A stretch of 64,000 bases of DNA from Chondrocystis sp. NIES-4102 (lineage in GTDB: Bacteria; Cyanobacteriota; Cyanobacteriia; Cyanobacteriales; Xenococcaceae). Positions 1 to 14,604 of this stretch are shown here, one piece after another. Within the stretch, counting starts at the first letter, position 1. Each line of letters opens with the position of its first letter. Under the pieces are notes generated by a model that saw only the letters and a list, made by a program, of their open reading frames with translations, was not told the origin of the DNA and did not search any database. The translations under genes and the position numbers were made by a program. The DNA is taken from assembly GCA_002368355.1 (NCBI GenBank), contig AP018281.1, forward strand, positions 1,426,001 to 1,490,000, given 5' to 3'.

Positions 1-260
1 GTTTCCTGCTTATCAAACACAAAATCTACTAGTGAGTCAAAAGATTTCTTAGTTAAATTATTACTACTTAAACGTAGATAATCTAAGTGAATAAAATTCT
101 TGAGAAATTTAAATTGGGAGTAAGTTTTAGTAGGTAAAAGATAGTTAAAGCTATTAGTAGTAAGAGAAAGAGTATTATGAAGGGATAGCGTGGTATTACT
201 AGAACAATTTTCTACAACTAATAACTGCTTGTTGCTGCTTTGGATATTTGGTTTTATCAT
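1..260 (-). CDS. Partial hypothetical protein at left window edge
   Basis: An open frame of 86 codons runs from an ATG at 258-260 to the window edge without a stop. It begins MIKPNIQSSNKQLL and is rich in Asn, Ser, Leu and Thr. I recognise no family or motif, and no clear Shine-Dalgarno sequence precedes the ATG. The start overlaps the 10-mer TTATCATGAT (254-263), which recurs at the sfnG junction, so the gene may belong to a second element or a neighbouring cassette. Codon choice (TTA, ACT, AAT) fits an AT-rich cyanobacterial gene, but a chance open frame cannot be excluded. The rest lies outside the window. Confidence 0.4.
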   Translation of the reverse strand, partial: MIKPNIQSSNKQLLVVENCSSNTTLSLHNTLSLTTNSFNYLLPTKTYSQFKFLKNFIHLDYLRLSSNNLTKKSFDSLVDFVFDKQE

Positions 261-263
261 GAT
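254..263 (+). repeat. Candidate attachment core, left copy (TTATCATGAT)
   Basis: This is an exact 10-bp match, same orientation, to 2955-2964 at the sfnG junction. Joining the two copies does not restore an SfnG-like protein: the frame would read WLDHDKTKYPKQQQ and soon stop. If real, it is more likely a junction between two elements than the original gene boundary. Confidence 0.35.
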
Positions 264-428
264 GCTTAGTGATTAAAAGTGAGTTCTCTTGACAGGGCTT
301 ATTTTTTTTTGTCTGTTTACCCTAACCTAGTATTCCTGTACTGTTATAGCTGCTTAACTTTAAGCTGTCGAATTAGGATACAAGTACTCGTAGAAATTGG
401 AACTAAGCTTTACTTACAGTTACCCTAT

Positions 429-469
429 ACCCGTTACCTAAAACGTAATATAAAAACGTATTACGTTTT
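429..469 (+). repeat. Hairpin 1 with shared 14-nt lead-in
   Basis: ACCCGTTACCTAAA at 429-442 runs into a perfect 10-bp inverted repeat: AAAACGTAAT at 440-449 and ATTACGTTTT at 460-469, loop 450-459. The same 14-mer leads into hairpin 2, and with one change into hairpin 3 on the other strand, although the three stems differ in sequence. Confidence 0.6.
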
Positions 470-564
470 TAGATACCCTCCCTTACTCACTAATTACCTT
501 AGTTAGATTCTCTTGGGTATGTATAAAAAAATACTTATTTACTTTGTAGATTAACCACTAGTGT

Positions 565-605
565 ACCCGTTACCTAAATAGTGACACTTTAAAGTGACAC
601 TATTT
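565..605 (+). repeat. Hairpin 2 with shared 14-nt lead-in
   Basis: ACCCGTTACCTAAA at 565-578 is identical to 429-442. Its last bases start the stem: AAATAGTG at 576-583 pairs with CACTATTT at 598-605. Between them CACTTTAAAGTG (585-596) is itself a perfect palindrome, giving a long, nearly continuous stem with single unpaired A residues. The lead-in is conserved but the stem sequence is not that of hairpin 1. Confidence 0.6.
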
Positions 606-1032
606 TATATATGCCCCCTTACATTGACTTGAGATGAATTTAAGCTTTTTGTTAGGTTACAGACTGTAGGTATTTCAGATAACATTCTTTAGGGGCTTGT
701 TATTGGTTATTTTACGTCTTCGCTCTCGTTCGTCCAGTATCTCCGTTTCACCTCGACTCTACGAGCTAGTACTTGACTAACTATCGCTTAGACTATTTTT
801 TTATTTAGGCAGCCCTCAAGGAATATTATCACTCATTATATATGCGACCTATAGGACGTAATTTGATTAGAACGTACTTTAGCAGTCACAACTATTAGCA
901 TCAGTATAATGATTATTGATTATCTGATGTATTTTAGTATTATCGTTTGTTACTAGCTTGAGATGATTGAGCAACTAATAATTGAAACTAAAAAAGAACT
1001 TAGTACTGTTTTGGGTGAGTTGGTAGGCGTAT

Positions 1033-1076
1033 CTAAAATAGTTGCACGTTTTTGTGCAACTATTTAGGTAATGGGT
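1033..1076 (-). repeat. Hairpin 3, inverted orientation
   Basis: ATAGTTGCAC (1038-1047) pairs with GTGCAACTAT (1054-1063) around a GTTTTT loop; flanking CTAAA and TTTAG extend the stem imperfectly. Read on the minus strand, the lead-in is ACCCATTACCTAAA (1076-1063), one base different from the lead-in of hairpins 1 and 2. The stem is again different in sequence but fully paired. Confidence 0.6.
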
Positions 1077-1240
1077 AATGCTCGTAAATAATCTTATAAA
1101 AATAACTCTCTATTACTCAAGCTTTGCTGTTGACGCAGCCCTAGTATATATATCCTGCCGAGGGTAGCTAATTTAAAATTATTAGTTGTGCTTTATGTTT
1201 ATAGTAGCTATTAGTGTAATGTTTACTATTGTCAGAAAAA

Positions 1241-1271
1241 AATCAAAGACTCTTATAAGGAATCTTTGATT
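1241..1271 (-). terminator. Probable terminator of the recombinase gene
   Basis: AATCAAAGA at 1241-1249 and TCTTTGATT at 1263-1271 are perfect inverted arms; the intervening bases also pair almost completely. On the minus strand the palindrome is followed by a run of T (A residues at 1236-1242 on the plus strand). It lies about 110 bp downstream of the recombinase stop codon. The stem is AT-rich, so strength is uncertain. Confidence 0.55.
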
Positions 1272-1380
1272 AGCTTGGTTACTTGTATTTAAGATTTGAT
1301 TACTTTATTTGTTTATATTCGTTTTGATATATCTCTATCGTTCTCGTGTAAGCTATCTGACAGCAAACGGCTATTAGTTC

Positions 1381-2862
1381 TTATTTCTGTTTCCTGCTAT
1401 CTTCTATCGCTTCATACATTTTGAGCTTAGTCTTGAGCATTTCGTTTTCATTTTCAAGATGACTTATTTTGTCTTTTAAGGCTTTGATTTCTATGTTGGC
1501 TTTATCTAGTTCAGAACGGCTTTCTTTGTCCTTAGAAATCGAATCTAGCATTCCCTGTAGCTTTACTTCGGTACTCATGTGTCGCAGGTAGTTGTTACTG
1601 TTCATCTGTAGCGAATGACCTAAGCTGTCAGCTAAAACTTTAGGCTTGTAGCCTAGTAGATGTCCTCTGTGATTATAGGCATGACGCAAAGCGTGAGGTG
1701 TGAATCCGTAACCGCGTCTAATGAACCAGTGGCAGGACTTACCAGTGCAACTGTAAGTTCCCTGACTGTTACCTAATGTCTTCAAAGGATTCTCGATATC
1801 AGGCAGATTAAAAGACTGTAAAAGATTAAATTCTTGTACCCAATCCGAACCCTCTGGAGAAAGAGGCATAGCCATCCTATAGCCAGTTTTAGTAGTGTGC
1901 TTAATACAAAGTATACGGTCTTTGTTTTCTGGGTCTAGTATCGCAGGGATTACCACGTCACCTAATGTATGCTGAGTAGCCGTTTCATCGTCGTCACCAT
2001 CGTCTACTATCACCCAATCCCCACTCTTAAGAGTCACTGGTTTATCCCAATTGGCTATATTCCACGCTTCATGTATTCGTAGTCCATAAGTAGCCAACAG
2101 ACCGTAAAGAAACTGCCATTGAGAGTATCTATGAAGATACCTTCTGTCGCATAGACGACTAGGAATAAACCCAGTTCTATAAACCTCGGCTATACGTTTA
2201 TCGCTAGGTACGTTTTTATCTTCGCGCTTAGGTTTATTATTAGCCTTGTATTCTTTAATGACCGTTTTATAATCACTGTTGTCAAAATACTTGAGGAACG
2301 CTACTAGTCCGTTAAGACAGCGTTTTCTAGCATCACTATTATTTTGGGTTAAATCTACAACCTGCCTGACTACAGATAAAGATATGGGTTTATCTAGTTC
2401 AGTCAGAACCGTTTCAATTTGTCTACAGGTATCATACCAAGTTTTTTGTGGGTTCTTATTACCCTTCCTTTGCTTAAAGTAATGAGCCTTATATTGCTCC
2501 AACATCTCTTTACAGGTAAGTACTTTAGCTCTTTCAGTAGTGTCTTTACCTATTAAGGCGTTATACCAATCCCAAGTGAATTGATTAGCTGCTAATTGAC
2601 CAGTAACTAGTGAAGCTATTCTTTCAGCTTCATCTATTCCTTTAGGGTTTAAAACGATACCACCTAAACCGACATTCTTCTGAGGGCTACCGTTACCATC
2701 ATTAAAATTAAACTGTAACGTTAATGAATTACGTTTAGCTACTATCTTTGCTCTCTTACCTCGTCTCCCTATTTGTTCTAAACGGCTGTTAGCCTCGTCT
2801 ACTAAGCGTTTGACGTGATAACCGCCATCATTAGGCAACTGTTCTGATACTAGTCTAACCAT
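1381..2862 (-). CDS. Tyrosine recombinase / phage-type integrase
   Basis: A 493-aa site-specific recombinase of the tyrosine class. The catalytic set is visible: Arg262 in TYGLRIHEAW, a possible box-II Lys near residue 325 (TTKTGY), His390 and Arg393 in HALRHAY, His416 in SLGHS and nucleophile Tyr425 in NNYLRH. The size and the GLRIHEAW and LRHAY motifs recall the large cyanobacterial recombinases related to XisA and XisC, which excise elements from nifD and hupL; that kinship is from memory. After the catalytic Tyr there is an unusual C-terminal coiled coil (about 447-486) with leucines at heptad spacing. AAGGAA precedes the ATG at a usable distance. The gene sits at the right edge of the element, next to the broken sfnG. 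No xisH, xisI or excisionase-like gene is seen in the window. Confidence 0.88.
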   Translation of the reverse strand: MVRLVSEQLPNDGGYHVKRLVDEANSRLEQIGRRGKRAKIVAKRNSLTLQFNFNDGNGSPQKNVGLGGIVLNPKGIDEAERIASLVTGQLAANQFTWDWYNALIGKDTTERAKVLTCKEMLEQYKAHYFKQRKGNKNPQKTWYDTCRQIETVLTELDKPISLSVVRQVVDLTQNNSDARKRCLNGLVAFLKYFDNSDYKTVIKEYKANNKPKREDKNVPSDKRIAEVYRTGFIPSRLCDRRYLHRYSQWQFLYGLLATYGLRIHEAWNIANWDKPVTLKSGDWVIVDDGDDDETATQHTLGDVVIPAILDPENKDRILCIKHTTKTGYRMAMPLSPEGSDWVQEFNLLQSFNLPDIENPLKTLGNSQGTYSCTGKSCHWFIRRGYGFTPHALRHAYNHRGHLLGYKPKVLADSLGHSLQMNSNNYLRHMSTEVKLQGMLDSISKDKESRSELDKANIEIKALKDKISHLENENEMLKTKLKMYEAIEDSRKQK

Positions 2863-2911
2863 TCCTTATTCGTTCCTTAAAACTATAACTGTAGTATGTT
2901 TGTATAAGGCT

Positions 2912-3361
2912 CTAATCCTTATATAGAGAGTATAGCACAAGACGGTGCAGGATCTTATCATGATCTAGCCAAGGTTCGCCATAAATAGTAAATTCATTCT
3001 TGAACCAACCGCTCACTACATTGAGGCAAAAACGACCTTTGGAGAGAAAGTCAATTGTCGCACCCATCTTGGCAACCACCCCTGGATGCCATAACCCTGG
3101 ATGCACTGCTGCAATTAATTTGAGTTTTTTAGTCACAGGAGCTAAGGCTGCTACTGTAGTTAATGCTTCTAGTTGATATTCAGCACCATAACTTGCAATA
3201 AATCTAGCTTGTGCTAGGGCATAGTCGAAGCCTACATTTTCGGCAATTCTAACTATTTTGGCATTGTAATCGTAAGTCCAATTAGTATGTTGAGGGATCT
3301 TGCTTACGACCAAACCACCGCTTACATTAGGAATCCAGTAAGCAAACTTGATATCTACCAT
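2912..3361 (-). pseudogene. sfnG: 5' fragment of dimethyl-sulfone monooxygenase gene, cut by an insertion
   Basis: A 149-codon frame with good initiation (AAGGAG before the ATG). Residues 1 to about 135 read as the N-terminus of an FMNH2-dependent group C flavin monooxygenase, closest in my recollection to SfnG, which converts dimethyl sulfone to methanesulfinate. Such proteins are about 360 aa. Resemblance stops after GEPWLDHD; the last 13 residues (ILHRLVLYSLYKD) and the stop codon come from the inserted element. Most of the TIM barrel is missing, so this form should be inactive. It is the last gene of the ssu operon, 58 bp after ssuE. If the element can excise, the gene would be rebuilt; the remaining 3' part is not in the window. 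Confidence 0.8.
2955..2964 (+). repeat. Candidate attachment core at the sfnG junction (TTATCATGAT)
   Basis: This 10-mer lies where the SfnG match ends (minus-strand codons for HD then AAG). The identical 10-mer is found at 254-263. The recombinase start codon is about 90 bp inside. Whether recombination truly happens here is inference. Confidence 0.45.
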
Positions 3362-3418
3362 AGTTACTCCTTAATGATGAATGTAAATTGGCAAAAAACT
3401 GTTATAGATCTAAACTTT

Positions 3419-3985
3419 TTAAGTTGTTTTAACTAATTCTTGAGAAATTGCTGGCAAACCGTTGCTAACTGCCACCAACTCTTGTAAGGCTGCTTTAAGG
3501 CGTTGATCGCTATCTTCGTTGAGTTGAACCTCGCCATTTGCCTGGAGTTGAATTTGTTTGTCTACTAAATAAATCGTCCCTAAAATATATCTTGCTCCTA
3601 ACTCAGACAAAACTGGTTTAAGAGCGTAATCAACTGATAACAAATGCGCCAGCGATCCGCCTGTAGCTAAAGGCAGAATAACTTTGCCAGAAAAGGCTTT
3701 TTGAGGGAGCAAGTCTAAGAACGCCTTTAATAGCCCTGTATAGGCAGCTTTATATATGGGGGTAGCAATAATTAAAGCATTGGCATTAGCAACTATAGCT
3801 TTTGTCGGTTCAAAGGTAGGACTATCATATTGCCCAAAAATCAAATCTTCAGGCGTTAAATCCCGAATAGAAATAATTTCGGTTTGAATTTTTTGTTGCT
3901 GTAAAATTTTAGTAGCATACTCTAAAATAGCGTAACTTTTAGATGGATAAGAAGGACTTCCAGCGATCGCCACTACATAAACCAT
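3419..3985 (-). CDS. ssuE: NAD(P)H-dependent FMN reductase
   Basis: A 188-aa flavodoxin-fold protein of the SsuE group. It reduces FMN with NAD(P)H and hands FMNH2 to two-component flavin monooxygenases. The N-terminal AIAGSPSYPSKS is the FMN-phosphate loop, and ATPIYKAAYTGLLKAFLDLLP (about 93-113) is the usual second flavin-binding segment. Length matches the family. It lies 13 bp after ssuB and upstream of the sfnG fragment, so it was placed to serve both SsuD (6255-7418) and the former SfnG. Cytoplasmic. Confidence 0.9.
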   Translation of the reverse strand: MVYVVAIAGSPSYPSKSYAILEYATKILQQQKIQTEIISIRDLTPEDLIFGQYDSPTFEPTKAIVANANALIIATPIYKAAYTGLLKAFLDLLPQKAFSGKVILPLATGGSLAHLLSVDYALKPVLSELGARYILGTIYLVDKQIQLQANGEVQLNEDSDQRLKAALQELVAVSNGLPAISQELVKTT

Positions 3986-4808: not shown

Positions 4809-5588
4809 TTAAAGTTGATAACTGGGATGCCACTGAAGCAACTTTGTTTCCAGTTGACGGGCGATGACATCTGCAAATTTTCCTAATAGGGCGTACAGTA
4901 AGATAGCAAACACCACCACATCCGTTTGCATAAACTCACGAGCATTCATTGCCAGATAGCCGATTCCTGAGTTGGCTGCGATCGTTTCGGCTACAATTAA
5001 GGTCAGCCACATAATTCCTAACGCATAACGTACTCCAACTAAGATTGATGGTAATGCGCCTGGAAGAATGATTTGCCAAAATAGATCCCAAAATGAAAGT
5101 CCATAAATTTTGCCCATTTCTAGTAGACCTCGATCAATAGTACGAATTCCCAAATAAGTATTTATATAAATGGGAAATAAAACCCCGATCGCAACTAAGA
5201 AAATTCTGCCACTATCGCCAATACCAAACCAAAGGATTACTAGAGGTATCATGGCTAGATGGGGAATGTTTCGCAACATCTGGACGGAAGTATCTAAAAG
5301 AAGTTCTGACCATCGAAAGACACCGTTTAACAGACCTAAAATGAAGCCTATCGCACCACCGATAATGAATCCCCATATCGCCCGAACAGCACTAATATAA
5401 ATATGTTTGTATAATTCACCTGTGCTAGCTAAATGAATACCTGCCCTGACTACAGCAATAGGTGTCGGTAAAACTTTAGTAGAAATTAAACCTACCTGTG
5501 CCAATACTTGCCAAATAAGCAACAGTAAAATGGGTAGTATCCAAGGGGCAACTAGTCTTAATTGTTTTTTGTTTAAGATCTTATTCAT
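4809..5588 (-). CDS. ssuC: Aliphatic sulfonate ABC transporter, permease
   Basis: A 259-aa inner-membrane permease of the BPD_transp_1 family, with about six hydrophobic segments; the first is at 12-31. The EAA-type loop for contact with the ATPase is seen around 150-175 (MGKIYGLSFWDLFWQIILPGALPSILVG in part). Its ATG (5586-5588) lies inside the last codons of the carbonic-anhydrase-like gene, an 8-bp overlap that suggests translational coupling. It forms the membrane channel for SsuA-delivered sulfonates. Confidence 0.92.
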   Translation of the reverse strand: MNKILNKKQLRLVAPWILPILLLLIWQVLAQVGLISTKVLPTPIAVVRAGIHLASTGELYKHIYISAVRAIWGFIIGGAIGFILGLLNGVFRWSELLLDTSVQMLRNIPHLAMIPLVILWFGIGDSGRIFLVAIGVLFPIYINTYLGIRTIDRGLLEMGKIYGLSFWDLFWQIILPGALPSILVGVRYALGIMWLTLIVAETIAANSGIGYLAMNAREFMQTDVVVFAILLYALLGKFADVIARQLETKLLQWHPSYQL

Positions 5589-6219
5589 CAGCAGAATTAG
5601 TTAAAGATGCCAAAACTGATTTCTCTTGCCTTATTTTCATGGCTTCTGCTGTATTAACTTGCTCACTTAAGCGTTCAAAAGGACGGCGCAAACTTTGTGT
5701 TTCTACTTCCCATATATAACTATGAATTTTTACCTTATCTGGAATTAAAGGTGATTTTTTCAACAATTCCACTTGTTTGAGCGCGATCGCATCTACATTA
5801 GTAAAGGTTTTAATCCAATTGGAAAAAACTCCTTGATTTAGCTTCAAATCTGGTAGAGATGGGTCTAAATCGACTTGATCAACATTAATACCTCTATCTT
5901 TCAAAACTTGGGTGATCAAATCCCCAGAAGCCGTCATCATACCGCACTCAGTATGATTGAGAACAATAATTTCTTGAGTTCCAAAAAACTGTGTTGTCAG
6001 CATAGCTGAACGAATTGCATCATCTGTCACTAGTCCGCCAGCATTACGAAAAATATGAGCATCTCCTAGTTCAATTCCTAACGCTTTTTCTACAGGTAAT
6101 CGTTCATCCATACAGGCTAAAACCCATAAACGTTTATTGTTTGGAATGCCCAATTGTCTGCGCAGCGACCAATTACGTCTTTCTTCAAGCTTATGCTCGA
6201 TTTGCTTATATAAACTCAT
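5581..6219 (-). CDS. Beta-carbonic-anhydrase-like zinc enzyme in the sulfonate operon
   Basis: A 212-aa protein with the beta-carbonic anhydrase zinc site: Cys36, Asp38 and Arg40 in CMDER, then His89 and Cys92 in LNHTECGMM, plus FRNAGG at 57-62. The family hydrates CO2, but close relatives hydrolyse carbonyl sulfide or carbon disulfide to H2S and CO2. It sits between ssuD and ssuC and overlaps ssuC by 8 bp, so it is made with sulfonate-uptake proteins. That placement makes a role on COS, CS2 or another sulfur one-carbon compound plausible, though pH or CO2 balance is also possible. No signal peptide, so cytoplasmic. The fold is sure; the substrate is not. Confidence 0.85.
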   Translation of the reverse strand: MSLYKQIEHKLEERRNWSLRRQLGIPNNKRLWVLACMDERLPVEKALGIELGDAHIFRNAGGLVTDDAIRSAMLTTQFFGTQEIIVLNHTECGMMTASGDLITQVLKDRGINVDQVDLDPSLPDLKLNQGVFSNWIKTFTNVDAIALKQVELLKKSPLIPDKVKIHSYIWEVETQSLRRPFERLSEQVNTAEAMKIRQEKSVLASLTNSADE

Positions 6220-6254
6220 AGCTTATTTCCCTATAATTACAAATCAACTTTTCT

Positions 6255-7418
6255 TCAATCTACAAAGGTAGCTATTTGATCTTTAAATTCCTGTTGAGGA
6301 AAATGATGATTAGCTATTATTTCGCCAAAAGGACTAAACATCACTTGCTCTGGAAGTGCTGGCAAGTTTTCCAAGGGTAAACGGGGAAATAATAATTCTG
6401 CTACACGGTAGGCTTCTTCTAAATGAGGATAACCAGATAAAATAAAATTCTCTATTCCTAAATTTGCATACTCTAACATCCTGGCTGCTACAGTATCAGG
6501 ATCGCCAACTAAAGCAGTTCCAGCCCCGCCTCTAACTAAACCAATCCCAGCCCATAAATTAGGACTTATTTCTAGCGTCTCACGCTTACCTTGATGTAGT
6601 GAACTCATACGCCTTTGTCCTTCCGAATCCATACGAGCATATGCCTTTTGAGCCGTGGCGATCGCTTGCTCATCCACATATCTAATTAGTTGATTAGCTG
6701 CATCCCAGGCTTGGCTTGCTGTTTCTCGCACAATTACGTGTAAACGAATTCCAAAGCGTAATTTCCGTCCCTGTTGTTCCGCTAAATGACGAACTTGAGC
6801 AATTTTTTGAGCTACTTGATCTGGGGTTTCTCCCCAAGTTAAATAGACATCTATATGTTTAGCTGCAACTTCTTGAGCGATCGCTGAAGAACCACCAAAC
6901 CATAAAGGAGGGTAGGGTTTTTGTAGAGAAGAAAACATTAATTTTCCACCACGAATGTTTAGATGTTCACCTTGAAAATGAGTTTCTGCTTCACAATTTA
7001 GCGATCGCCATGCAGTTAAAAATTCATCTGTTAGTTGATAACGTTCTGTATGATTTAAATGCAATCCATCTCCTGCTAATTCAATCGGATCGCCACCCGT
7101 AACAACGTTAATTAACAAGCGTCCCCCAGACAAGCGATCAAAAGTAGCAGCCATACGTGCAGCAACTGCGGGTGAAACTAATCCAGGACGCACCGCTACC
7201 AGAAAGCGCATCCGTTGGGTATGTGCCATCAGGGTTGCAGCGACTATCCAGGCATCTTCACAGGATCTTCCTGTCGGTAGTAACGCTCCCGTATACCCCA
7301 AGCGATCGACAGCTTGAGCAATTTGTGTCAGATAAGTGATATCGGTTGCTCGTCCACCAATTGTCGTACCTAAATAATGACCATCTCCATGAGTGGGAAT
7401 AAACCAAAGAACTTGCAT
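6255..7418 (-). CDS. ssuD: FMNH2-dependent alkanesulfonate monooxygenase
   Basis: A 387-aa bacterial luciferase-like flavin monooxygenase. It cleaves alkanesulfonates with FMNH2 and O2 to an aldehyde and sulfite. The N-terminus [26 protein letters not shown] near 104-111, the WFGGSS segment and [18 protein letters not shown] near the C-terminal third are typical of SsuD. Length is close to that of E. coli SsuD. It is 20 bp after ssuA and 35 bp before the carbonic-anhydrase-like gene; reduced flavin would come from SsuE in the same operon. Product sulfite feeds sulfite reductase. Confidence 0.93.
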
Positions 7419-7438
7419 AATATGTATCTCCCTACATT

Positions 7439-8518
7439 TTAGTTGTTTGTTTGAGCTACTTCTTGAACTTGAACTGGTTTGGGTAATAGTTTTAGTTGAT
7501 AAAATGTATCCGCTATTTGCTGTTGCTCCTTAATTACCTCTGGTTTGATAGTTTCAATACCACTAGGACGACGTTGTAAGACTTCTTCTAATACCGCTAC
7601 GTCAATACCTAATTCAGGTGATAAAAGCTGTGCTGCTTCTGTAACATGGGTATTTGCCCAGATATCCGCTTTTTCCGTTTCTTCTAAAATTATTTGGATT
7701 CTTTCCCAATGGCGATCGGCGAAAGATTGATCTGCTAAATAAAACTCTCGATTTGCGACTAATCCCTCTCCATCTTCCAATATGCGGGCATTTGTCGCCT
7801 GTTTTGCTGCTGTATAGAAAGGATCCCAAATCGCCCAAGCATCTACACTACCTTGCTCGAAGGCAGCCCTGGCATCGGCAGGAGGCAAAAACACTGTTTC
7901 CACCTCTTCATATTTAATATTTGCTGCTTCTAAAGCCTTGACTAGCAGGTAATGTACATTAGAACCCTTATTTAAAGCAATTTTTTTACCTTTAAGATCC
8001 TTTACTGTTTTGATGGTTGAGTCTTGATGGACTAAGATGCCTTCAGCTTTGGGGTTGGGTGTTTGATTGGCAATATATTTTAAGGGTACTCCAGCAGCTT
8101 GAGCAAATAAAGGAGGTGCTTCTCCCGTGTGTCCAAAGTCGATACTACCTGCATTAATAGCTTCTAATAGTTGAGGTCCTGCAGGAAAGAGAACCCACTG
8201 TACCGTAATACCTTGACTTTTGAAACGTTGTTCTAAATTTTCTCTGGCTTTAAGGATTGATAGTGTTCCAAACTTCTGATATCCAATCCGAATAACTCGA
8301 TTTTCAACTTCGTCACCAGAATTACTTGTACCCACAGAAGAAGTAACTGGGGAAATGGCATTAGTTGAGTTGACAGAATCGCTAGGAATACAGGCTGTTA
8401 AAGTCGTACTTAATCCCAAACCTATTATAAGTAGAAGCGAACTAGGTCGAAGATAGAAGCAAAACGTAGGGAAATAACTTGAAATATTTTTGAAAAATAA
8501 TGTTGAGCGAAAAACCAC
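7439..8518 (-). CDS. ssuA: Aliphatic sulfonate-binding lipoprotein
   Basis: A 359-aa periplasmic binding protein of the SsuA/NMT1-like family. A lipoprotein signal peptide ends in the lipobox LTAC with Cys43. The mature part has the [15 protein letters not shown] start and a [12 protein letters not shown] segment typical of sulfonate binders. It starts at GTG (8516-8518), with GAGGG about eight bases upstream. It is the first gene of the minus-strand operon to sfnG', and diverges from the NIL-domain gene, so the operon promoter should lie in 8519-8665. Confidence 0.9.
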
Positions 8519-8665
8519 GATTTAACCCTCTTTTATTTGGAGAGTGGAAGTAGACTGTTTTATATTAAAACACAAATTAATCAAAAATGTATTTTATTTC
8601 ATTTACAAATCACACAAGATCGAAATATAATTCAAAAAAGTTAAAAGTCAAAGCAATATGAATTT
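8519..8665. promoter_or_regulatory. Divergent regulatory region between ssuA and the NIL-domain gene
   Basis: A 147-bp AT-rich spacer separates two divergent sulfur gene groups. It must carry both promoters, and a shared sulfur-responsive operator (for example for a CysR- or LysR-type regulator) is likely. I could not assign a specific motif. Confidence 0.5.
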
Positions 8666-8977
8666 ATGAGCAAAGCGAACTTAGCCAAGATCTCTAACGA
8701 TTCTCCTAATCAAAATGACTTTACTCAGGTACGACTACAGATTTTCTTTCCTAATTACTACCAGCAACCTCTGTTATCACTCTTAACTAGTAATTGCGCT
8801 GTAGCTTTTAACGTTACTAAATCGAGACTAGACAGCGATTATGAATTTAGGGGGCAATTAGATCTTGAACTGCGAGGTACGATTCCACAAATTTGTTGTG
8901 GACTTGCTTATTTAGAATCTCTCGACCTCAAAATTATTGGTAAAGCCAATAGCGATCGCGATAGTTGGTATTACTAA
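8666..8977 (+). CDS. NIL-domain protein, sulfur-linked
   Basis: A 103-aa soluble protein of the NIL ligand-binding fold, the ferredoxin-like domain also found at the C-terminus of methionine ABC ATPases. Residues 21-100 match the cyanobacterial NIL proteins that usually lie beside sulfate or methionine uptake genes: VRLQIFFPNYYQQPLLS, then LDLELRGTIPQICCGLAYLESLDLKI and the terminal DSWYY. No DNA-binding or membrane part is seen. It lies 41 bp before serine acetyltransferase and diverges from ssuA, so a role in sensing or handling a sulfur amino acid is likely. CC at about 78-79 could be redox-active, which is speculation. Confidence 0.85.
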   Translation: MSKANLAKISNDSPNQNDFTQVRLQIFFPNYYQQPLLSLLTSNCAVAFNVTKSRLDSDYEFRGQLDLELRGTIPQICCGLAYLESLDLKIIGKANSDRDSWYY

Positions 8978-9018
8978 AACCTGATAGTTGCATTTATATA
9001 ATAAGCTCCTTCTAAATT

Positions 9019-9807
9019 ATGAACCTTAGTCCACTTCCAACCAATCCTCAAGAAGATAATGTTGTCCAGACTACTAGCATTTTTCAACTGTTAAAATCAG
9101 ATCTCCTCACGACTAAAAAACTCTCAAACCAAAACCTTTTAGAATTATTATTTTGCTCACCTGGATTGCAAGCATTATTTCTGCATCGGGGAGCTAATTG
9201 GCTTGAGGGTTTAAAAATTCCGCTTCTGCCTCGGTTCATTTCTGCCTTAAAACGTTTTATGACAGGAATTGAAATTCATCCTGGGGCTAAAATAGGTAAG
9301 GGTGTTTTGATTTGTCATGGTTCTGGAGTTGTAATCGGTGAAACAGCGATTATTGGCGATGGAAGTCTTATCTATCAAGATGTTACTTTGGGCGGAACTG
9401 GTAAAGAGGCAGGCAAACGTCATCCAACTCTTGGGAAAAATGTGATAGTTGAGCCTGGGGCTAAAGTTTTAGGCAACATTAAAATTGGTGATAATGTTCG
9501 TATCTGCGCAGGTGCAGTTGTACTGCGAAATGTTCCAGATAATAGTGTAGTTGCGGGTGTACCTGGAAGAATAATCTATTCAGACTGGAATCTTAATTCT
9601 CAATCTGAGCAAGAATTAAAAATAGATCGGCAAGCTCAAATTATCCAAAATTTATTCAAACGAATTAAGCTACTTGAAAATCAAGTGGAAAATTGGAAAT
9701 CAAAATCTAATTGTTTGTCAGATGCCTGCATAGTAGATGTTCAAGCTAATCTCCACTCTGAATCGGATGATCTGATTGAAGAATTTTTAGAAGGTGCTGG
9801 AATTTAA
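9019..9807 (+). CDS. cysE: Serine O-acetyltransferase
   Basis: A 262-aa acetyltransferase that makes O-acetyl-L-serine from serine and acetyl-CoA, the carbon acceptor for sulfide in cysteine synthesis. After an N-terminal helical part comes a left-handed beta-helix of hexapeptide repeats (about 92-190), with the SAT motifs GIEIHPGAKIGKG, HGSGVVIGE, DVTLGGTGK and AGVPGRII. A coiled segment follows, and the chain ends EGAGI. A C-terminal Ile is the residue that docks into O-acetylserine sulfhydrylase in the cysteine synthase complex. Its form is like the short EpsC or SrpH type; srpH is the name used for a sulfur-regulated plasmid copy in Synechococcus. Its place in the sulfur island suggests it is the sulfur-regulated copy. 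Confidence 0.92.
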   Translation: MNLSPLPTNPQEDNVVQTTSIFQLLKSDLLTTKKLSNQNLLELLFCSPGLQALFLHRGANWLEGLKIPLLPRFISALKRFMTGIEIHPGAKIGKGVLICHGSGVVIGETAIIGDGSLIYQDVTLGGTGKEAGKRHPTLGKNVIVEPGAKVLGNIKIGDNVRICAGAVVLRNVPDNSVVAGVPGRIIYSDWNLNSQSEQELKIDRQAQIIQNLFKRIKLLENQVENWKSKSNCLSDACIVDVQANLHSESDDLIEEFLEGAGI

Positions 9808-9901
9808 GTAACTAAGCACAATTGCTAATAAAACTTGTATCCAGATTAATTGTCAGTGTTTTAGATAAATTAAGCGAAATAAAAAAATGTCTTCGTAGCT
9901 C

Positions 9902-10393
9902 ATGTTTATTGCTGCTTCTGATTGGAAACAAATTATATTTAGACTGACGTTAGCACTAATAATTGGGTGTGTGATCGGTATTAATCGTCAGCAAGGAGGT
10001 AGACCTGCAGGGATGAGAACATTCATGTTAGTCTCTATGGGATCTGCTTTGTTTGTGATGATTCCTTTATTAGTAGAAGGAGAAAGTCCTTATGCAACAA
10101 CCAATGCCTTAAGTCGGACTATTCAAGGAGTGACAACAGGAGTTGGTTTTCTGGGAGCGGGACTAATCTTACAGGAATCTTCTCCAAAATCCAAAATACC
10201 AAAAATTAAGGGTTTGACCACTGCAGCATCGATTTGGGTAGCTGCTGCATTAGGGGCAGCAATGGGCTGTGGTTTATGGCAAATAGGCTTATACGGGGCT
10301 TTTTTAACTGCGGTCGCAGTGACGGAAGCCACGGGATTTCACATCCCGTGGTCGCATCACTTTAATAACCTTGAGTGGCGAAAGAGCGGATGA
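9902..10393 (+). CDS. MgtC/SapB-family membrane protein with altered C-terminus
   Basis: A 163-aa protein with the MgtC N-terminal domain: four or so membrane helices and the motifs RLTLALIIGCVIGINRQ, RPAGMRTFMLVSMGSALF, GVGFLGAGLI and KGLTTAASIWVAAALG. In this family the last helix is followed by a short charged tail. Here helix five breaks into TEATGFHIPWSHHFNNLEWRKSG, which is encoded over a 9-bp perfect hairpin (10329-10351). The natural tail thus seems to have been replaced by an inserted palindrome. The function (Mg or phosphate homeostasis, or acid response) is only known in general. It is 94 bp after cysE. Confidence 0.8.
   Translation: MFIAASDWKQIIFRLTLALIIGCVIGINRQQGGRPAGMRTFMLVSMGSALFVMIPLLVEGESPYATTNALSRTIQGVTTGVGFLGAGLILQESSPKSKIPKIKGLTTAASIWVAAALGAAMGCGLWQIGLYGAFLTAVAVTEATGFHIPWSHHFNNLEWRKSG
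10329..10351 (+). repeat. Palindrome inside the 3' end of the MgtC-like gene
   Basis: CCACGGGAT (10329-10337) and ATCCCGTGG (10343-10351) form a perfect 9-bp stem with loop TTCAC. The preceding GGAAG gives GGAAGCC-stem, a form often seen at right ends of IS200/IS605-type elements. It is not followed by a T run, so it is not a normal terminator. Read as a relic or mini-element inserted in the gene. Confidence 0.5.
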
Positions 10394-10490
10394 GACGTTC
10401 CCACTTACTGCGGAAAAATCAATTTAAGAAAATGTCAACTTTGAGTCAAATAGATATTCATTCTAATCAAAAAAATAATCGGGAAAAACT

Positions 10491-10679
10491 ATGATTAAAA
10501 AAGATTTTTTATTCCCCTCAACTTGCCGTTTCTGTCAGTTTTACCAGTTTAATGGAGGTCAAGGCAGAGGTAATTGTGGTCAACTAAATGTTGGCGTTTA
10601 TGGTCATTGGCATTCCTGCCGTTTAGCTTTACCACCTTTTGCACCATCCTGGGAAAAAGCTAATCAGGAAATGATCTAA
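10491..10679 (+). CDS. Small cysteine-containing protein
   Basis: A 62-aa protein with four Cys in a C-x2-C...C...C layout (CRFC near 12-15, NCGQL near 29, SCRL near 43) that could bind zinc or iron. It starts MIKKDFLFPSTC and ends in a Pro- and Trp-rich segment, PPFAPSWEKA. I recall similar small proteins as conserved hypotheticals in cyanobacteria, with no known function. It lies alone between the MgtC-like gene and methanethiol oxidase. No transmembrane part. Confidence 0.7.
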   Translation: MIKKDFLFPSTCRFCQFYQFNGGQGRGNCGQLNVGVYGHWHSCRLALPPFAPSWEKANQEMI

Positions 10680-10994
10680 TAATGATTACCATTGGATTAT
10701 ATAGAGGACAATAAAAGTTATAGGAGTGATAGACTCAATATATAGTAGTTATTACTCAACAGTAGAAAGGTCAAAGCTAATATCATCATCCCATCAGGGT
10801 ATTAACCAGCACATAGGGTGTATCCTGCAATTTATCAGGATATTGATATTGCTATGTAAAATCACAACCAGAATTACACATTTCCAAATGGGGTTACTTG
10901 AGGATTTGAAACAAAATTTAATTGTATTTCAGGTTTTCGGTGATTTTAAATCATATTAAATATAGACAAAAAAACTTTTAAAGGAAATAAAAAT
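10680..10994. other. Leader region upstream of methanethiol oxidase
   Basis: 315 bp without a convincing gene. A GTG-initiated 77-codon frame across it has no ribosome site and no family resemblance. It contains TATCCTG (10821-10827) and CAGGATA (10836-10842), an inverted repeat with an 8-nt spacer, about 155 bp before the next ATG. This could be an operator or RNA stem; I see no known riboswitch consensus. Confidence 0.45.
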
Positions 10995-12344
10995 ATGGCA
11001 CATTCATGTTGTGGTCCTGGCTATGCGTCTCCTCAAATAGCAATGCAAGCAGAACCAGAGAAAATTCTATACGCGATCGCACTTTATACTGGAACAGGAA
11101 TCGAACAACCCGATTATTTAGCTACTATAGATGTTGATCCAAATTCCTCTACTTATTCTCAGATAATCCATCGTCTCCCTATGCCTTATATTGGGGATGA
11201 ATTACATCATTTTGGTTGGAATGCCTGTAGTTCTTGTCATGGAGATAGCAGTAAATCTCGTAGATTTTTAGTTATACCAGGAATTCGTTCTAGTCGCATC
11301 TATATTTTGGACACAGCAGACCCCAAAGCCCCTAAAATTCATAAAATAATTGAGCCAGAAACTATCAAATCTAAGACTAATCTCAGTGCGCCCCACACTG
11401 TTCATTGTTTAGCCAATAGTGAAATTATGATTTCTATGTTGGGAGATAGTCAGGGTAATGCCCCAGGAGGCTTTTTGCTTCTAAATGATAATTTTGAAAT
11501 TATCGGTAGATGGGAAGAAAATAACGACCTAAAATTTAACTATGATTTTTGGTATCAGCCTCGTCACAACGTTATGGTAAGCAGTGAGTGGGCTGCGCCT
11601 AAAACCTTTTATCCAGGCTTTGATTTAAATGATGTTCAAGCTGGTAATTATGGTCAACGATTACATTTTTGGGATTGGCAACAACAGAAAATTATTCAAA
11701 CTACTGATTTAGGAGAAGAAGGTCTAATCCCCCTAGAAGTTCGTTTCCATCATAATCCTGATAGTATGCACGGATATGTTGGTGCTGCTTTGGCTAGTAA
11801 TATTTGGCACTGGTACAAAAATGATACACAATGGCAAGTAGAAAAAGTTATTGATGTGCCTGCGGTTGAACTTGAAGGCTGGTCTTTTCCTGTTCCCTCT
11901 TTAATTACAGACATACTTATCTCCCTTGACGATCGCTATCTTTATTTTTCTAATTGGTTACACGGTGATATACGTCAGTATGACATTAGCGATCCTGCTC
12001 AACCTAAGCTGACAGGACAGGTTTGGTGTGGAGGATTATTAGGCAAAACAATTGAGGTTAAGGGACAGCAGCTATATGGAGGTCCACAAATGCTGCAACT
12101 AAGTCTAGATGGCAAACGTCTATATGTTACCAATTCACTTTTTAGCACTTGGGATAATCAGTTTTATCCAGATTTAGCTTCCAAAGGTTCTTATATGCTG
12201 CAAATTGATTGTAATCTTGAGGAGGGAGGACTGGAAATTAATCAAGATTTTTATATAGACTTTGGGAAAGAACCTAACGGAGCAGCCCGCGCCCATGAGA
12301 TGCGCTATCCAGGCGGAGATTGCACATCCGATATTTGGCTCTAA
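10995..12344 (+). CDS. Methanethiol oxidase / selenium-binding protein SBP56 family
   Basis: A 449-aa protein of the SELENBP1/SBP56 family. Bacterial members oxidise methanethiol to formaldehyde, sulfide and H2O2. It starts [13 protein letters not shown], has the conserved [11 protein letters not shown] motif (about 74-84) and the His-rich segments [25 protein letters not shown] and [17 protein letters not shown] at the C-terminus, which carry the presumed copper ligands of the beta-propeller. Length matches the family. No signal peptide is visible, unlike some periplasmic methanethiol oxidases. AAAGGAAATAAAAAT precedes the ATG. The ferredoxin gene follows after 19 bp, and nearby ssu and sfnG genes support a role in organic sulfur breakdown. 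Confidence 0.9.
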
Positions 12345-12363
12345 TCTTGAAAACAGATGAAAT

Positions 12364-12675
12364 ATGAAAACTTATCGCATTGAATTAATCAATCGAGATA
12401 ATTTTACCCTAGAGATAACAGCAGATAAATATATTTTAGAAGGGATTGAACAGGCTGGATTATCCTTACCTGTAGGCTGCCGTTATGGAGCTTGTATTAC
12501 CTGTGCTGCCAAATTAATTAAAGGCAAGGTAGATCAATCCCAAGCCATTTGTCTGAAACCAGAACAAATCAAAGCTGGATATGTTTTACTGTGTATTGCC
12601 AAAGCCCGCTCCTCTTGTACGTTTGAAGTTGGCTTGGAATCTCAAGCAGGTTTATATTTCAATCCTTTCCTTTGA
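12364..12675 (+). CDS. Plant-type [2Fe-2S] ferredoxin
   Basis: A 103-aa electron carrier. The cluster ligands are Cys39, Cys44 and Cys47 in GCRYGACITC and Cys77 in YVLLCIA, the normal C-x4-C-x2-C...C order. The protein differs from photosynthetic PetF in its longer C-terminus (SQAGLYFNPFL) and in a less acidic surface, so it is probably a specialised isoform. It is 19 bp after the methanethiol oxidase gene and its end overlaps the convergent cupin-flavoprotein gene by 24 bp. Possible partners are that flavoprotein or an oxygenase; this is inferred from position only. Confidence 0.9.
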   Translation: MKTYRIELINRDNFTLEITADKYILEGIEQAGLSLPVGCRYGACITCAAKLIKGKVDQSQAICLKPEQIKAGYVLLCIAKARSSCTFEVGLESQAGLYFNPFL

Positions 12676-14604
12676 TTGCAGGGTAAGCAATTGCTGTGCT
12701 AATGTTTGAGCCTGTTGACGAATCTCAGCTACTGCAGTGGTTTCCCACAGGCAACCTTTTAGAGGTGAACCTAAAGTAAAGAGTAAATTGGATATTTCAC
12801 CTGCACTATTAATGAGTGCGCCATTGGCAGCTACTTCTAAACCGAGATTAAGAGGATCTGGTTTAATTAGACCTGAATTGAGTAAATTGTTAACTAAAGG
12901 ATGCTCTAGTTGCCGATAATTGGATTGTGAACCTGCACAATTAATAACTACTCCTACTGGTAAATTCAAAATATCTTTACTACATCGCTGGCGAATTGAG
13001 ACATTTACCCCCTGACTATTCTCGTTATAGGCTTGAATACGCCCTGCTATTAAATGTAATTGTCCTGCTGCCATTTTAAGATCAAGACGTTGATGAATAA
13101 CACTAGAGACTCGATGACGATGAATTTCCCAATAAGATCGAAGATGACGTAAAAATCTTTGTTTTTCAGCGATCGCTAGAGATTGCCAGATTACTTGAGT
13201 ATGGGGACGAAGTGAATTGATTACAGATTGCCAGTTGCTTCCTTCTATTTGGGCAGTAGCTATTTCTTGTCTAATTTGACGCATTAGAGAACTAATTTTT
13301 GTCGGTAAGGCTTGGGACTCGAACAAAAATGGATAAGGAGTTGTTGAGGTATGGGCTTGAGGAAATAAACCATGACGCGAAACAACATAAATTTGACCTC
13401 GATGTTTTTGTTCTTCTAATGCCAAGATCGCATCTATAGCACTTAATCCCGAACCAATAATCAAAATCCCTTGATCAGCAGGTATGGCAGCTAATCGAGA
13501 TGGTGTAGACCAAAAGCGAAAGTAACGATTACTTTGATAAAAAGCAGGATCGGCGACTTGAGGATCTGCTGGTGGAAAATTTCCCCAAGCCAAGACAACT
13601 TGGTCAGCTTCAATACTTTTACCATTATTAAAGTAAATAGTAGCCTGTTGGGCATCTGTTTTTAGAGCGATCGCATTACAAGTTAATCTCTCTAAATTAA
13701 CACCTATCGCCCCTGCTTCTGCTTTGGCTAAAATTGAACGAATATACTCACCGTAAACTTTTCTAGATACAAAATCATCTTTGCTGATACCTGATTCTCG
13801 CGTTTGCAACCAATCCCAAAAATGATCTTGCTCTTTGGCAAAAGCACTCATCTTACCAGTGGGAACATTTAGCAGATGACCATCCCAATTAGTACTGTAA
13901 GCAATTCCCTCCCCAACTAAAGGACGACTTTCGATTAACTTAATTTGAAGATTAGAGACGGCGTTTTTAAGTAGATGTACCGCCACCATCGACCCACTAA
14001 AACCTCCACCTATAATTGCAATGGTTTTTTTCTTTGAGGGAAATCCCTTACTTTGAGCGGGGTTATCAATTAGTCTTTTTTGATTGTTGGCTGTAACATT
14101 AGAAAATTGCCATTGTTTCTGGGTTAAATCATAGACTTTCATCTGTTGTAATGGTTTTACATAGACATTAAGAGTAATGAGATTTTGGTTAGAAGTATTA
14201 GCAAGTTGATGAATTTGAGCGTAATCTACTCCCACTAATTCATTTGCTTGTAGATCTTTTTCTTCCTCCAGTAGGGGAAAAAATTTATTGTTGAGAATAT
14301 AAGTTCTAGAAGTAAGCGTCCCTCGATATACACGCGTTACATTCAAACAATCACCATGATCATGAATTGGACTTGATTGTCCTGGCTGCCAACAAACTAC
14401 AATAATCTCACAGTTAGAATCACGATAGAGAATTTGACGTTGATAATTTTCGCATCTAAAGCAAATATAATCCTCAATTGCCAGATCTCTTAAATCTAGT
14501 CTCGCTACCCAGTCTTGTAATTGAGTTAATTTAAGATCCTTTGTAGCAACTTTCTCAAGCTCCATAATTAAGTCCTTGAGATTTAATATTGTAAGATTTT
14601 GCAT
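12652..14604 (-). CDS. Cysteine-dioxygenase-like cupin fused to FAD/NAD(P)-binding protein
   Basis: A 650-aa fusion. Residues 1 to about 165 form a cupin of the cysteine dioxygenase type: His81 and His83 in PIHDHGDC, a third ligand His132 and Tyr148 in NVYVKPL. Residues about 193-640 are an FAD/NAD(P)-binding protein of the YdhS/NAD_binding_9 type: IAIIGGGFSGSM, LLNVPTGKMSAFA, ILIIGSGLSAIDA and INCAGSQSNY. The first half would oxidise cysteine or another thiol to a sulfinate; the second is a flavoprotein of unknown reaction. A second start at Met14 (MELEKV) with AAGGA upstream fits cysteine-dioxygenase N-termini better. It converges on the ferredoxin gene with 24 bp overlap. Confidence 0.85.
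   Translation of the reverse strand: MQNLTILNLKDLIMELEKVATKDLKLTQLQDWVARLDLRDLAIEDYICFRCENYQRQILYRDSNCEIIVVCWQPGQSSPIHDHGDCLNVTRVYRGTLTSRTYILNNKFFPLLEEEKDLQANELVGVDYAQIHQLANTSNQNLITLNVYVKPLQQMKVYDLTQKQWQFSNVTANNQKRLIDNPAQSKGFPSKKKTIAIIGGGFSGSMVAVHLLKNAVSNLQIKLIESRPLVGEGIAYSTNWDGHLLNVPTGKMSAFAKEQDHFWDWLQTRESGISKDDFVSRKVYGEYIRSILAKAEAGAIGVNLERLTCNAIALKTDAQQATIYFNNGKSIEADQVVLAWGNFPPADPQVADPAFYQSNRYFRFWSTPSRLAAIPADQGILIIGSGLSAIDAILALEEQKHRGQIYVVSRHGLFPQAHTSTTPYPFLFESQALPTKISSLMRQIRQEIATAQIEGSNWQSVINSLRPHTQVIWQSLAIAEKQRFLRHLRSYWEIHRHRVSSVIHQRLDLKMAAGQLHLIAGRIQAYNENSQGVNVSIRQRCSKDILNLPVGVVINCAGSQSNYRQLEHPLVNNLLNSGLIKPDPLNLGLEVAANGALINSAGEISNLLFTLGSPLKGCLWETTAVAEIRQQAQTLAQQLLTLQSKERIEI

Follow-up and report, generated by a model that had tools for sequence, protein, structure and literature searches.

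In Chondrocystis sp. NIES-4102, the dimethylsulfone monooxygenase gene sfnG is split by a mobile element (element A) whose unit, measured from repeat to repeat, is 5,407 bp. The two parts of the gene are bordered by direct repeats and can be restored to one reading frame, the insert carries an intact recombinase and a Rep gene, and a near-identical block recurs in three elements of this genome at different sites. We consider it quite likely that element A is a recently active integrative replicon, one of many insertions, and that its movements represent sporadic mobility and not a programmed response to sulfur. Positions below refer to the window, which is the whole 64,000-nucleotide stretch of DNA that was analyzed; element A extends beyond its left edge.

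The original prediction held that foreign sequence cuts sfnG at about 135 codons, and comparison with the protein family bore this out: the match of the interrupted frame (window 3361-2912, minus strand) to TIGR04021 (E = 9.8e-70) covers model positions 1-134 and stops there, out of 350. The missing 3' part, which had been predicted to lie to the left together with the junction core, was located by a profile search of the genome 5.4 kb leftward and outside the window (C1:1422896-1423558, minus strand); it covers TIGR04021 positions 130-350 without stops, and TTATCATGA is present at both halves. The two parts lie on one strand and together make up a whole ortholog. When rejoined with one copy of TTATCATGA, they encode a 363-aa SfnG that is 80-84% identical to 18 cyanobacterial SfnG proteins, with no indel at the joint. 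All 18 of these proteins continue across the joint position, which argues against the possibility that the family naturally ends at this point. The residue encoded by codon 136, at the joint, is Lys in the rejoined protein and Glu in 18 of 18 homologues. One homologue (L104) has an in-frame stop beyond the joint position.

Table 1. Features of element A and its junctions with sfnG
Feature	Position in window	Strand	Basis or remark
Element A, in-window part	1..2954	.	Continues left to ~window -2443 (genome C1:1423557)
Rep_trans initiator, N-terminal part (332 aa; whole gene L053:9262-10260)	3..260	-	PF02486; continues left
Terminator-like hairpin, ~110 bp past recombinase stop	1241..1271	-	Consensus scan; pattern match, not evidence of function
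Tyrosine recombinase, 493 aa, C-terminal coiled-coil-like tail	1381..2862	-	PHROG_1 integrase, E 1.8e-8
AAGGAACG / AATAAGGAATG repeats overlapping recombinase ATG	2860..2879	-	Recur at other element end
Element-encoded run-on of broken sfnG frame, ~14 foreign codons then stop	2912..2954	-	Reading frame
TGCTATACT, extended -10-like box near edge of sequence shared by A and B	2929..2937	-	Flank alignment
Right copy of 9-bp direct repeat TTATCATGA, element/sfnG junction	2955..2963	.	Genome 1428955-1428963
sfnG 5' part (dimethylsulfone monooxygenase), codons 1 to ~133	2964..3361	-	TIGR04021, 1-134/135 of 350 with core
Left copy of 9-bp direct repeat TTATCATGA			Genome C1:1423548-1423556, outside window

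TTATCATGA is a perfect direct repeat located where each half of sfnG meets the insert. In the comparison of two stretches of 401 and 301 bases in which it was detected, chance alone would give about 0.4 shared 9-mers, and these stretches also share one further 9-mer and a 12-mer (the element's end repeats); thus the 9-bp repeat is not significant by itself. Its position exactly at the gene joint is significant (~4e-6 for one fixed register). Of the limits first proposed for the arrangement (254..3361), the left one is not an edge of element A, which extends to ~window -2443.

Element A contains the genes for the recombinase and Rep and no other ORF longer than 75 aa, so that a relaxase or transfer gene would not fit in. 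The recombinase had been placed about 90 bp beyond the sfnG part and reading away from it, and this was confirmed: its ORF begins 92 bp past the joint repeat, inside the element, and runs in the direction of sfnG and away from the 5' part. Residues R262, K325, H390, R393, H416 and Y425 are invariant in an alignment of 15 recombinase homologues, and we take these to be the catalytic R-K-H-R-H-Y set of tyrosine recombinases, a class to which the predicted protein belongs with its catalytic residues intact. Its PDB matches (E 0.001-0.005; XerC-like and Int chains) are weak, searches of Pfam and NCBIfam gave no family at E<=0.001, and at a loose limit there were just weak coiled-coil-type matches. 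The Rep protein matches PF02486 with E 3.1e-7 and 30.6 bits, passing the cut-off of 29.6 by just 1 bit; it also matches a PHROG replication initiation protein (E 7.3e-6) and has no significant match in the PDB at E<=0.001. This putative Rep_trans initiator is of the kind that an integrative rolling-circle replicon would carry.

Two related elements are present in the same genome. Element B encodes a sister recombinase, 84% identical to that of A, and sits in the tail of spoIID; its core is ambiguous, which we counted against the integrative-replicon reading. TTAATAT was considered as the core of B, and the spoIID tail is too poorly conserved to decide. Element C, located at tRNA-Val where it has a direct repeat of ~37 bp, combines the same Rep block with a distant recombinase. 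All three elements have in common a replicon block of 2.5-2.6 kb with an identical or nearly identical sequence: A and B match without a difference across 2,618 bp, A and C across 2,274 plus 252 bp with one difference between these, and the Rep gene shows 0 nucleotide differences whichever two of the three elements are compared; the element ends diverge. Such near-identity points to recent activity or to recent recombination between the copies. Searches of the genome's seven contigs with window DNA 1-3500 and with the recombinase protein placed every match on C1, and neither a circle nor a free copy turned up among the assembled contigs.

Because near-identical blocks are present in three copies, we considered whether a wrong join during assembly had placed one of them inside sfnG. 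A wrong join within the block would pair unrelated flanks; the flanks of element A belong instead to a single gene, whose halves are correctly ordered and oriented and meet the element at matching repeats, and we regard an artefact as extremely improbable. The element could instead be a fixed insertion that is unable to leave, with sfnG a pseudogene, as has a precedent in the decayed relative described below and as a second lesion beside sfnG might suggest. We hold this to be quite unlikely, since both the recombinase and the Rep gene retain intact ORFs, the direct repeats match perfectly, the three copies of the replicon block are near-identical and neither half of sfnG has stops.

Relatives of element A are scattered over many sites. 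In a genome of the same genus (G007), an element whose recombinase and Rep are 57% and 55% identical, respectively, to those of A splits a FAD/Rieske-type oxidoreductase gene at a TTTTTG core; the rejoined gene reads GLFFAKTFPQRSY at the place where five of the six relatives looked at have GLFFAKTYPQRSY. This element has decayed, with a frameshifted Rep and IS-like insertions, and its host gene is cut by transposase-like sequence. The recombinase family (E<=1e-60) is present in 14 of 388 genomes of the order, 10 of the 14 belonging to the window's own family. Its members are mostly from Xenococcaceae, and their sites are many and unrelated, in or beside genes and also intergenic; among 16 recombinase-side flanks, no pair is alike except L060/L061, which share a 27-bp match at 89%. 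The idea that Rep might characterize the recombinase family as a whole was not borne out: a Rep match was found in 5 of the 20 compared stretches (elements A, B and C, the G007 element, and L069 with a partial match at 35%), and there was none in L167-L176, nifD elements included, although several of the contigs end early. A plasmid collection yielded recombinase matches at 23% in two records and one Rep match, at 24% identity, on a 2.2-kb plasmid. Viral contigs contained two distant recombinase relatives and no Rep relative, and phages gave no Rep match.

The original prediction had likened this arrangement to the programmed elements of cyanobacteria. The survey of cyanobacterial interruption elements by Hilton, Meeks and Zehr (2016; PMC4874684) defines such elements structurally by a split ortholog, perfect direct repeats at the overlap and a recombinase at most 3 kb from the junction, and judged by its sequence element A fits this definition: like them, it lies inside a coding gene between perfect direct repeats and has its recombinase at one edge. 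Interruption elements are further characterized by excision that restores the gene when a cell differentiates or is stressed, which for element A would be a prediction. The survey describes nifD elements with tyrosine recombinases inserted near nucleotide 895. Of five elements with nifD split near codon 300, three were compared, which, from their position, presumably represent the survey's "895" variant; as in element A, the recombinase is the first gene of these elements and is oriented like the host gene. The recombinase of A is homologous to those of the three nifD elements (profile E 1e-44 to 1e-50, 26-28% identity) and yet sits on a branch of its own, outside their clade; in the tree the three group together on a long branch of uncertain position, while 100/100 support unites those of A and B as sisters. 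No sequence was identified as XisA or XisC, the recombinases to which the original prediction had pointed; four stretches next to nifD genes in which the match ends near codon 436, their elements not being traced end to end, gave no match to the recombinase family, a weak negative.

Thus homology to the nifD recombinases, placement and a restorable frame uphold the proposed likeness, whereas programmed excision does not follow from it. The host gene of element A is sfnG and not a gene of nitrogen fixation or heterocyst function, and this genome has no nifD match. Element A carries a Rep_trans gene, which the three nifD stretches lack and which receives no mention in the sections of the survey covered here; and unlike the nifD elements, the family of A has sister elements at unrelated places and no known trigger. 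The host gene appears to be new, as had been suggested: sfnG is absent from the 25 interrupted gene groups in Table 1 of the survey, whose main text contains no "sulf-" word, and the literature searched yielded no description of such an element in sfnG. As far as these searches reach, sfnG is a new target and lies in a sulfur-use operon.

The original prediction also suggested that excision might be tied to sulfur supply. As a regulated interruption element, A would leave sfnG under sulfur limitation, enabling dimethyl sulfone use, persist as a Rep-driven plasmid and later reintegrate; the coupling could be simple, with transcription of the sulfonate operon reading through into the recombinase 92 bp past the joint. 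The gene can be restored precisely and in frame, the intact recombinase lies at the edge nearest to the gene and is oriented with the operon, and homologous recombinases have the same placement in three nifD elements, all of which would suit this idea. So would the consensus scan, which found no terminator-like site between joint and recombinase and one ~110 bp after the recombinase; however, the weak terminator-like sites that it found upstream, within the sfnG 5' part and ssuE, would hinder read-through if real. We found no stop or frameshift in either sfnG half, as might also be expected if regular excision kept the gene useful, and upstream of sfnG ssuA, ssuD, ssuC, ssuB and ssuE are open frames with lengths as in a relative (L114). 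In contrast, the acyl-CoA-dehydrogenase-like gene beside sfnG has 184 aa as against 404, a loss of ~220 codons outside the element, so that it would stay damaged even after excision. At 235 sites that are otherwise invariant, the rejoined SfnG carries 12 replacements, whereas the 18 other proteins have 0-6 apiece; these replacements suggested relaxed selection, and they are not decisive because no second sequence represents the lineage of the rejoined SfnG. Presumably, sfnG is silent while element A is in place. The other genomes of the genus contain nothing beyond SsuD-like matches to the sfnG model and thus no conserved arrangement, and family members lie at unrelated genes and intergenic places, with element B in the spoIID tail. 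The scattered targets and the additional damage next to sfnG count against programming, as do the decayed G007 insertion and the lack of a nifD match, and we therefore consider regulated excision unlikely.

The junction itself holds several candidate signals. TGCTATACT may be a promoter element; the sequences of A and B differ upstream of it, and a TATACT-like word, under the script's loose pattern, is present in 15 of 16 aligned recombinase-side flanks. A full promoter across the joint was considered and rejected: the -10-like box recurs, yet there is no convincing -35, and the joint region has 16 promoter-like sites compared with a mean of 22 in its shuffles. The AAGGAACG / AATAAGGAATG repeats are possible arm-type binding sites for the recombinase. 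Between the core and the shared ends, A, B and the G007 element differ from one another over ~16-23 bp; a simple site-specific scheme offers no explanation for this, and like the ambiguous core of B it counts against the integrative-replicon reading. Coupling sequences like those of Tn916 are a possible reason for such a variable ~20 bp beside a core, a reading that is not settled because spacer lengths disagree among the three elements.

Integrative plasmids and elements that combine a rolling-circle type Rep with a tyrosine integrase are a known kind, and element A resembles them in joining a Rep_trans gene and a tyrosine recombinase, here in one 5.4-kb unit. Element C, at tRNA-Val, occupies a classical kind of integration site, whereas A and the G007 element differ from integrative plasmids in their short 6-9-bp cores within protein genes. 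As with SPbeta in spsM and skin in sigK of Bacillus subtilis, excision of the mobile element would rebuild the host gene; those two switches are reported to be developmentally regulated (PMC4191935; PMC5025042), whereas for element A, which has the recombinase and Rep as its sole ORFs over 75 aa, we favour sporadic mobility.

We propose that the integrative replicon moves as follows. The tyrosine recombinase would cut the element out as a circle through short core repeats, presumably acting on the TTATCATGA pair in the case of A; the circle would probably be copied by the Rep_trans initiator through rolling-circle replication and would reinsert at other short, loosely similar sequences. Copy A would have entered sfnG recently in this manner, and its excision at TTATCATGA would restore sfnG, probably as an instance of sporadic element mobility.

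The survey leaves open both the origin of interruption elements and their persistence outside terminal cells (PMC4874684). A reversible sulfur switch, in which ssu-sfn read-through would lead to recombinase production and excision under sulfur limitation and the Rep-kept circle would reinsert when sulfate returns, strikes us as quite improbable; if true, it would answer how an interruption element survives excision in a non-terminal cell. What the present data indicate is that distant relatives of the nifD-element recombinase ride elements of Xenococcaceae whose landing sites, within genes or next to them, are many, at least two of these (sfnG and the G007 oxidoreductase gene) being at short cores allowing clean rejoining. 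Some elements of the family carry a Rep gene, which would let the excised element persist. Mobile elements of this sort could be the origin of interruption elements, having been kept where excision happened to coincide with need.

The original prediction held that the 5′ part of sfnG was interrupted and that a recombinase lay just past the joint, and both statements were borne out. The window spans C1:1426001-1490000 in a 5.0-Mb genome of seven contigs. A profile search placed the end of the 5′ part after about 135 codons (positions 1-134 of the 350-position SfnG profile TIGR04021), and the missing 3′ part, sought leftward, was found on the same contig (table). Copies of TTATCATGA stand at both sides of the joint, 5,407 bp apart, and rejoining the gene with one copy gives a 363-aa product that is 80-84% identical across 360-366 columns to 18 cyanobacterial SfnGs, 17 of them without a stop and one (L104) with one in-frame stop; a 19th (L106) is frameshifted and aligned in two pieces. 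SfnG is rare: among 388 genomes examined from the order, 19 exceed the family cut-off, and the two other genomes of the genus that match the model at E≤1e-40 (G002 and G012) do so in an SsuD-like manner only (157-169 bits over 61-333), as does the SsuD of the window genome. The core repeat may have left a mark in sfnG, seen as the Lys at codon 136. Neither half carries a disabling change, which favors regulated (programmed) excision from sfnG, a process that, in the original prediction, might be tied to sulfur supply; against it, the rejoined SfnG, the sole sequence of its lineage in this comparison, shows 12 replacements among 235 positions where the other 18 do not vary, compared with 0-6 for each of those 18.

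The intervening element (element A) encodes a 493-aa recombinase that starts 92 bp past the repeat, in the direction of sfnG. It matched no Pfam family at E≤0.001 but did match a PHROG integrase family, and the residues that we take to be the tyrosine-recombinase catalytic set are invariant in an alignment of 15 homologues. Also encoded are a 332-aa protein of the Rep_trans replication initiator family (PF02486; 30.6 bits against a cut-off of 29.6) and a 75-aa protein whose weak ribbon-helix-helix matches fall below their cut-offs; there is no further ORF >75 aa. Repeats of the AAGGAACG / AATAAGGAATG type lie at both ends. No terminator-like site separates the sfnG joint from the recombinase (upstream, both ssuE and the 5′ part of sfnG contain weak ones), and the replicon could sustain the element during an excised phase; both points speak for regulated excision.

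On the minus strand, the operon runs leftward as ssuA, ssuD, a carbonic-anhydrase-like gene, ssuC, ssuB, ssuE, and sfnG, where SsuD, SsuE, and SfnG were identified by profile match and the names ssuA, ssuC, and ssuB are our presumption. The carbonic-anhydrase-like gene, so named by assumption and conceivably a COS or CS2 hydrolase, had no match in stretches of the two relatives examined. Genes that we take to be serine-acetyltransferase-like and SBP56-like suggest a wider organic-sulfur cluster. The acyl-CoA-dehydrogenase-like gene adjoining sfnG carries an in-frame internal deletion (184 aa versus 404 aa in stretch L113), a second lesion beside sfnG and a further point against regulated excision.

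Positions of features (L053, L054, and L055 are the stretches holding elements A, B, and C; C1 is the contig of the window)
Feature	Position	Remarks
sfnG 3′ part	C1:1422896-1423558	same strand; TIGR04021 positions 130-350; zero stops
Codon 136 of rejoined sfnG	window 2955-2963	Lys at joint; Glu in 18 of 18 other SfnGs
Acyl-CoA-dehydrogenase-like gene	L053 6290-6844
Presumed carbonic-anhydrase-like gene	window 5581-6219
Presumed serine-acetyltransferase-like / SBP56 (methanethiol-oxidase-like) genes	window 9019-9807 and 10995-12344	beside the sulfonate operon
Element B	L054 about 7,770-13,160	in non-conserved spoIID tail; recombinase 84% identical to A's
Element C	L055 about 6,120-11,560	at tRNA-Val; A's replicon, distant recombinase
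Replicon block	L053 7960-10956; L054 9765-12761; L055 8177-11173	2.5-2.6 kb identical or nearly so
GTTACCTAAA ... TATATATGCC hairpins	L053 about 8034; L054 about 12687; L055 about 11099	constant frame
Further such hairpins	window about 421-480, 564-615, 1029-1073

Two further elements in the same genome, B and C, share the replicon block of A. A and B have 2,618 identical bp, A and C have 2,274 + 252 bp with one difference between the two runs, and the Rep gene shows no nucleotide difference in any of the three pairs. The recombinase of C matches the family profile at E 5.8e-27. Identity drops outside the block, as expected after homologous recombination, and the ends and integration modules differ; the shared block thus appears to reflect recent recombination or homogenisation between copies. 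The stems of the GTTACCTAAA ... TATATATGCC hairpins vary among A, B, and C yet remain palindromic (that is, they covary), and these hairpins may serve as operators, origins, or terminators. A stretch of about 16-23 bp separates the core from the shared ends, and its sequence differs among A, B, and the related element of the same-genus genome G007; on one side of B it is 2 bp if the core is TTAATAT. Most of 16 aligned members have a TATACT/TATGCT-like box 42-77 bp before the recombinase, and the sequence shared by A and B begins at this box.

At E≤1e-60, the recombinase family occurs in 14 of 388 genomes of the order, 10 of them in the window's family. Recombinase-side flanks were usable for 16 of 17 loci (that of L070 was too short), and an all-versus-all comparison of 600 bases each, fewer at contig ends, paired only L060 with L061 (over 27 bp at 89%). 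Ten flank ORFs (10 of 16) were scanned, and seven matched a Pfam family at E≤0.01, the DAO and Cupin matches falling below the curated cut-off. Viewed from the recombinase side, DctP and DUF2780 are met near the 3′ terminus of each gene, a Mg-chelatase/ComM-like gene is cut inside, and a response regulator is reached just at its start. Element A belongs to a mobile element family. The insertion targets of the family are unrelated to each other, and, weighing this with the lesion beside sfnG and the replacements, we consider regulated excision from sfnG unlikely. Rep was matched in five of 20 recombinase-family stretches (A, B, C, G007, and, at 35% and partially, L069) and in none of L167-L176, nifD stretches included, with several contigs ending inside or near the element; Rep as a general trait of the family does not seem to be borne out. 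Separately, L175 and L176 (both on contig C1 of G084) hold two copies of another recombinase of the wider family, sharing several kb at 91-97% with different upstream flanks.

The original prediction likened element A to the xisA and xisC elements in nifD and hupL. The window genome had no nifD match. Five genomes had nifD split near codon 300, and the recombinases of the three elements fetched from them matched the family profile (E 1.5e-50, 2.6e-46, and 1.3e-44), with 26-28% identity to that of element A. All three lie at the element start, and in the two flanks viewed (L171 and L173), the recombinase directly follows nifD in the same direction. In a tree of 28 rows, they form their own long branch, whose placement is not fixed. 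PMC4874684 describes an 895 variant of the nifD element with tyrosine recombinases, 4 of 6 placed at the element start in the nifD direction; from position, we infer that the three elements correspond to this variant. The family had no match in four stretches beside nifD genes whose match ends near codon 436, a weak negative that covers these stretches alone. The likeness to programmed elements is thus real as regards a distant recombinase family and architecture; it does not extend to demonstrated regulation. A title and abstract search, with subscription papers mostly outside its coverage, returned no work on an element in sfnG or on this family.

The G007 element, whose recombinase matches at 57% and whose frameshifted Rep matches at 55%, splits an FAD/Rieske-type oxidoreductase gene (DAO match, E 0.0012; the Rieske part is our presumption). 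Rejoined at TTTTTG, the gene reads GLFFAKTFPQRSY, compared with GLFFAKTYPQRSY in five and GLFFAKAYPKRSY in the sixth of six relatives inspected from eleven loci fetched besides G007. The element holds IS-like insertions, and the host gene is also broken upstream by what we take to be transposase-like sequence. Together with the sfnG case, this makes at least two clean insertions within genes for the family, and one of the two genes has been lost.
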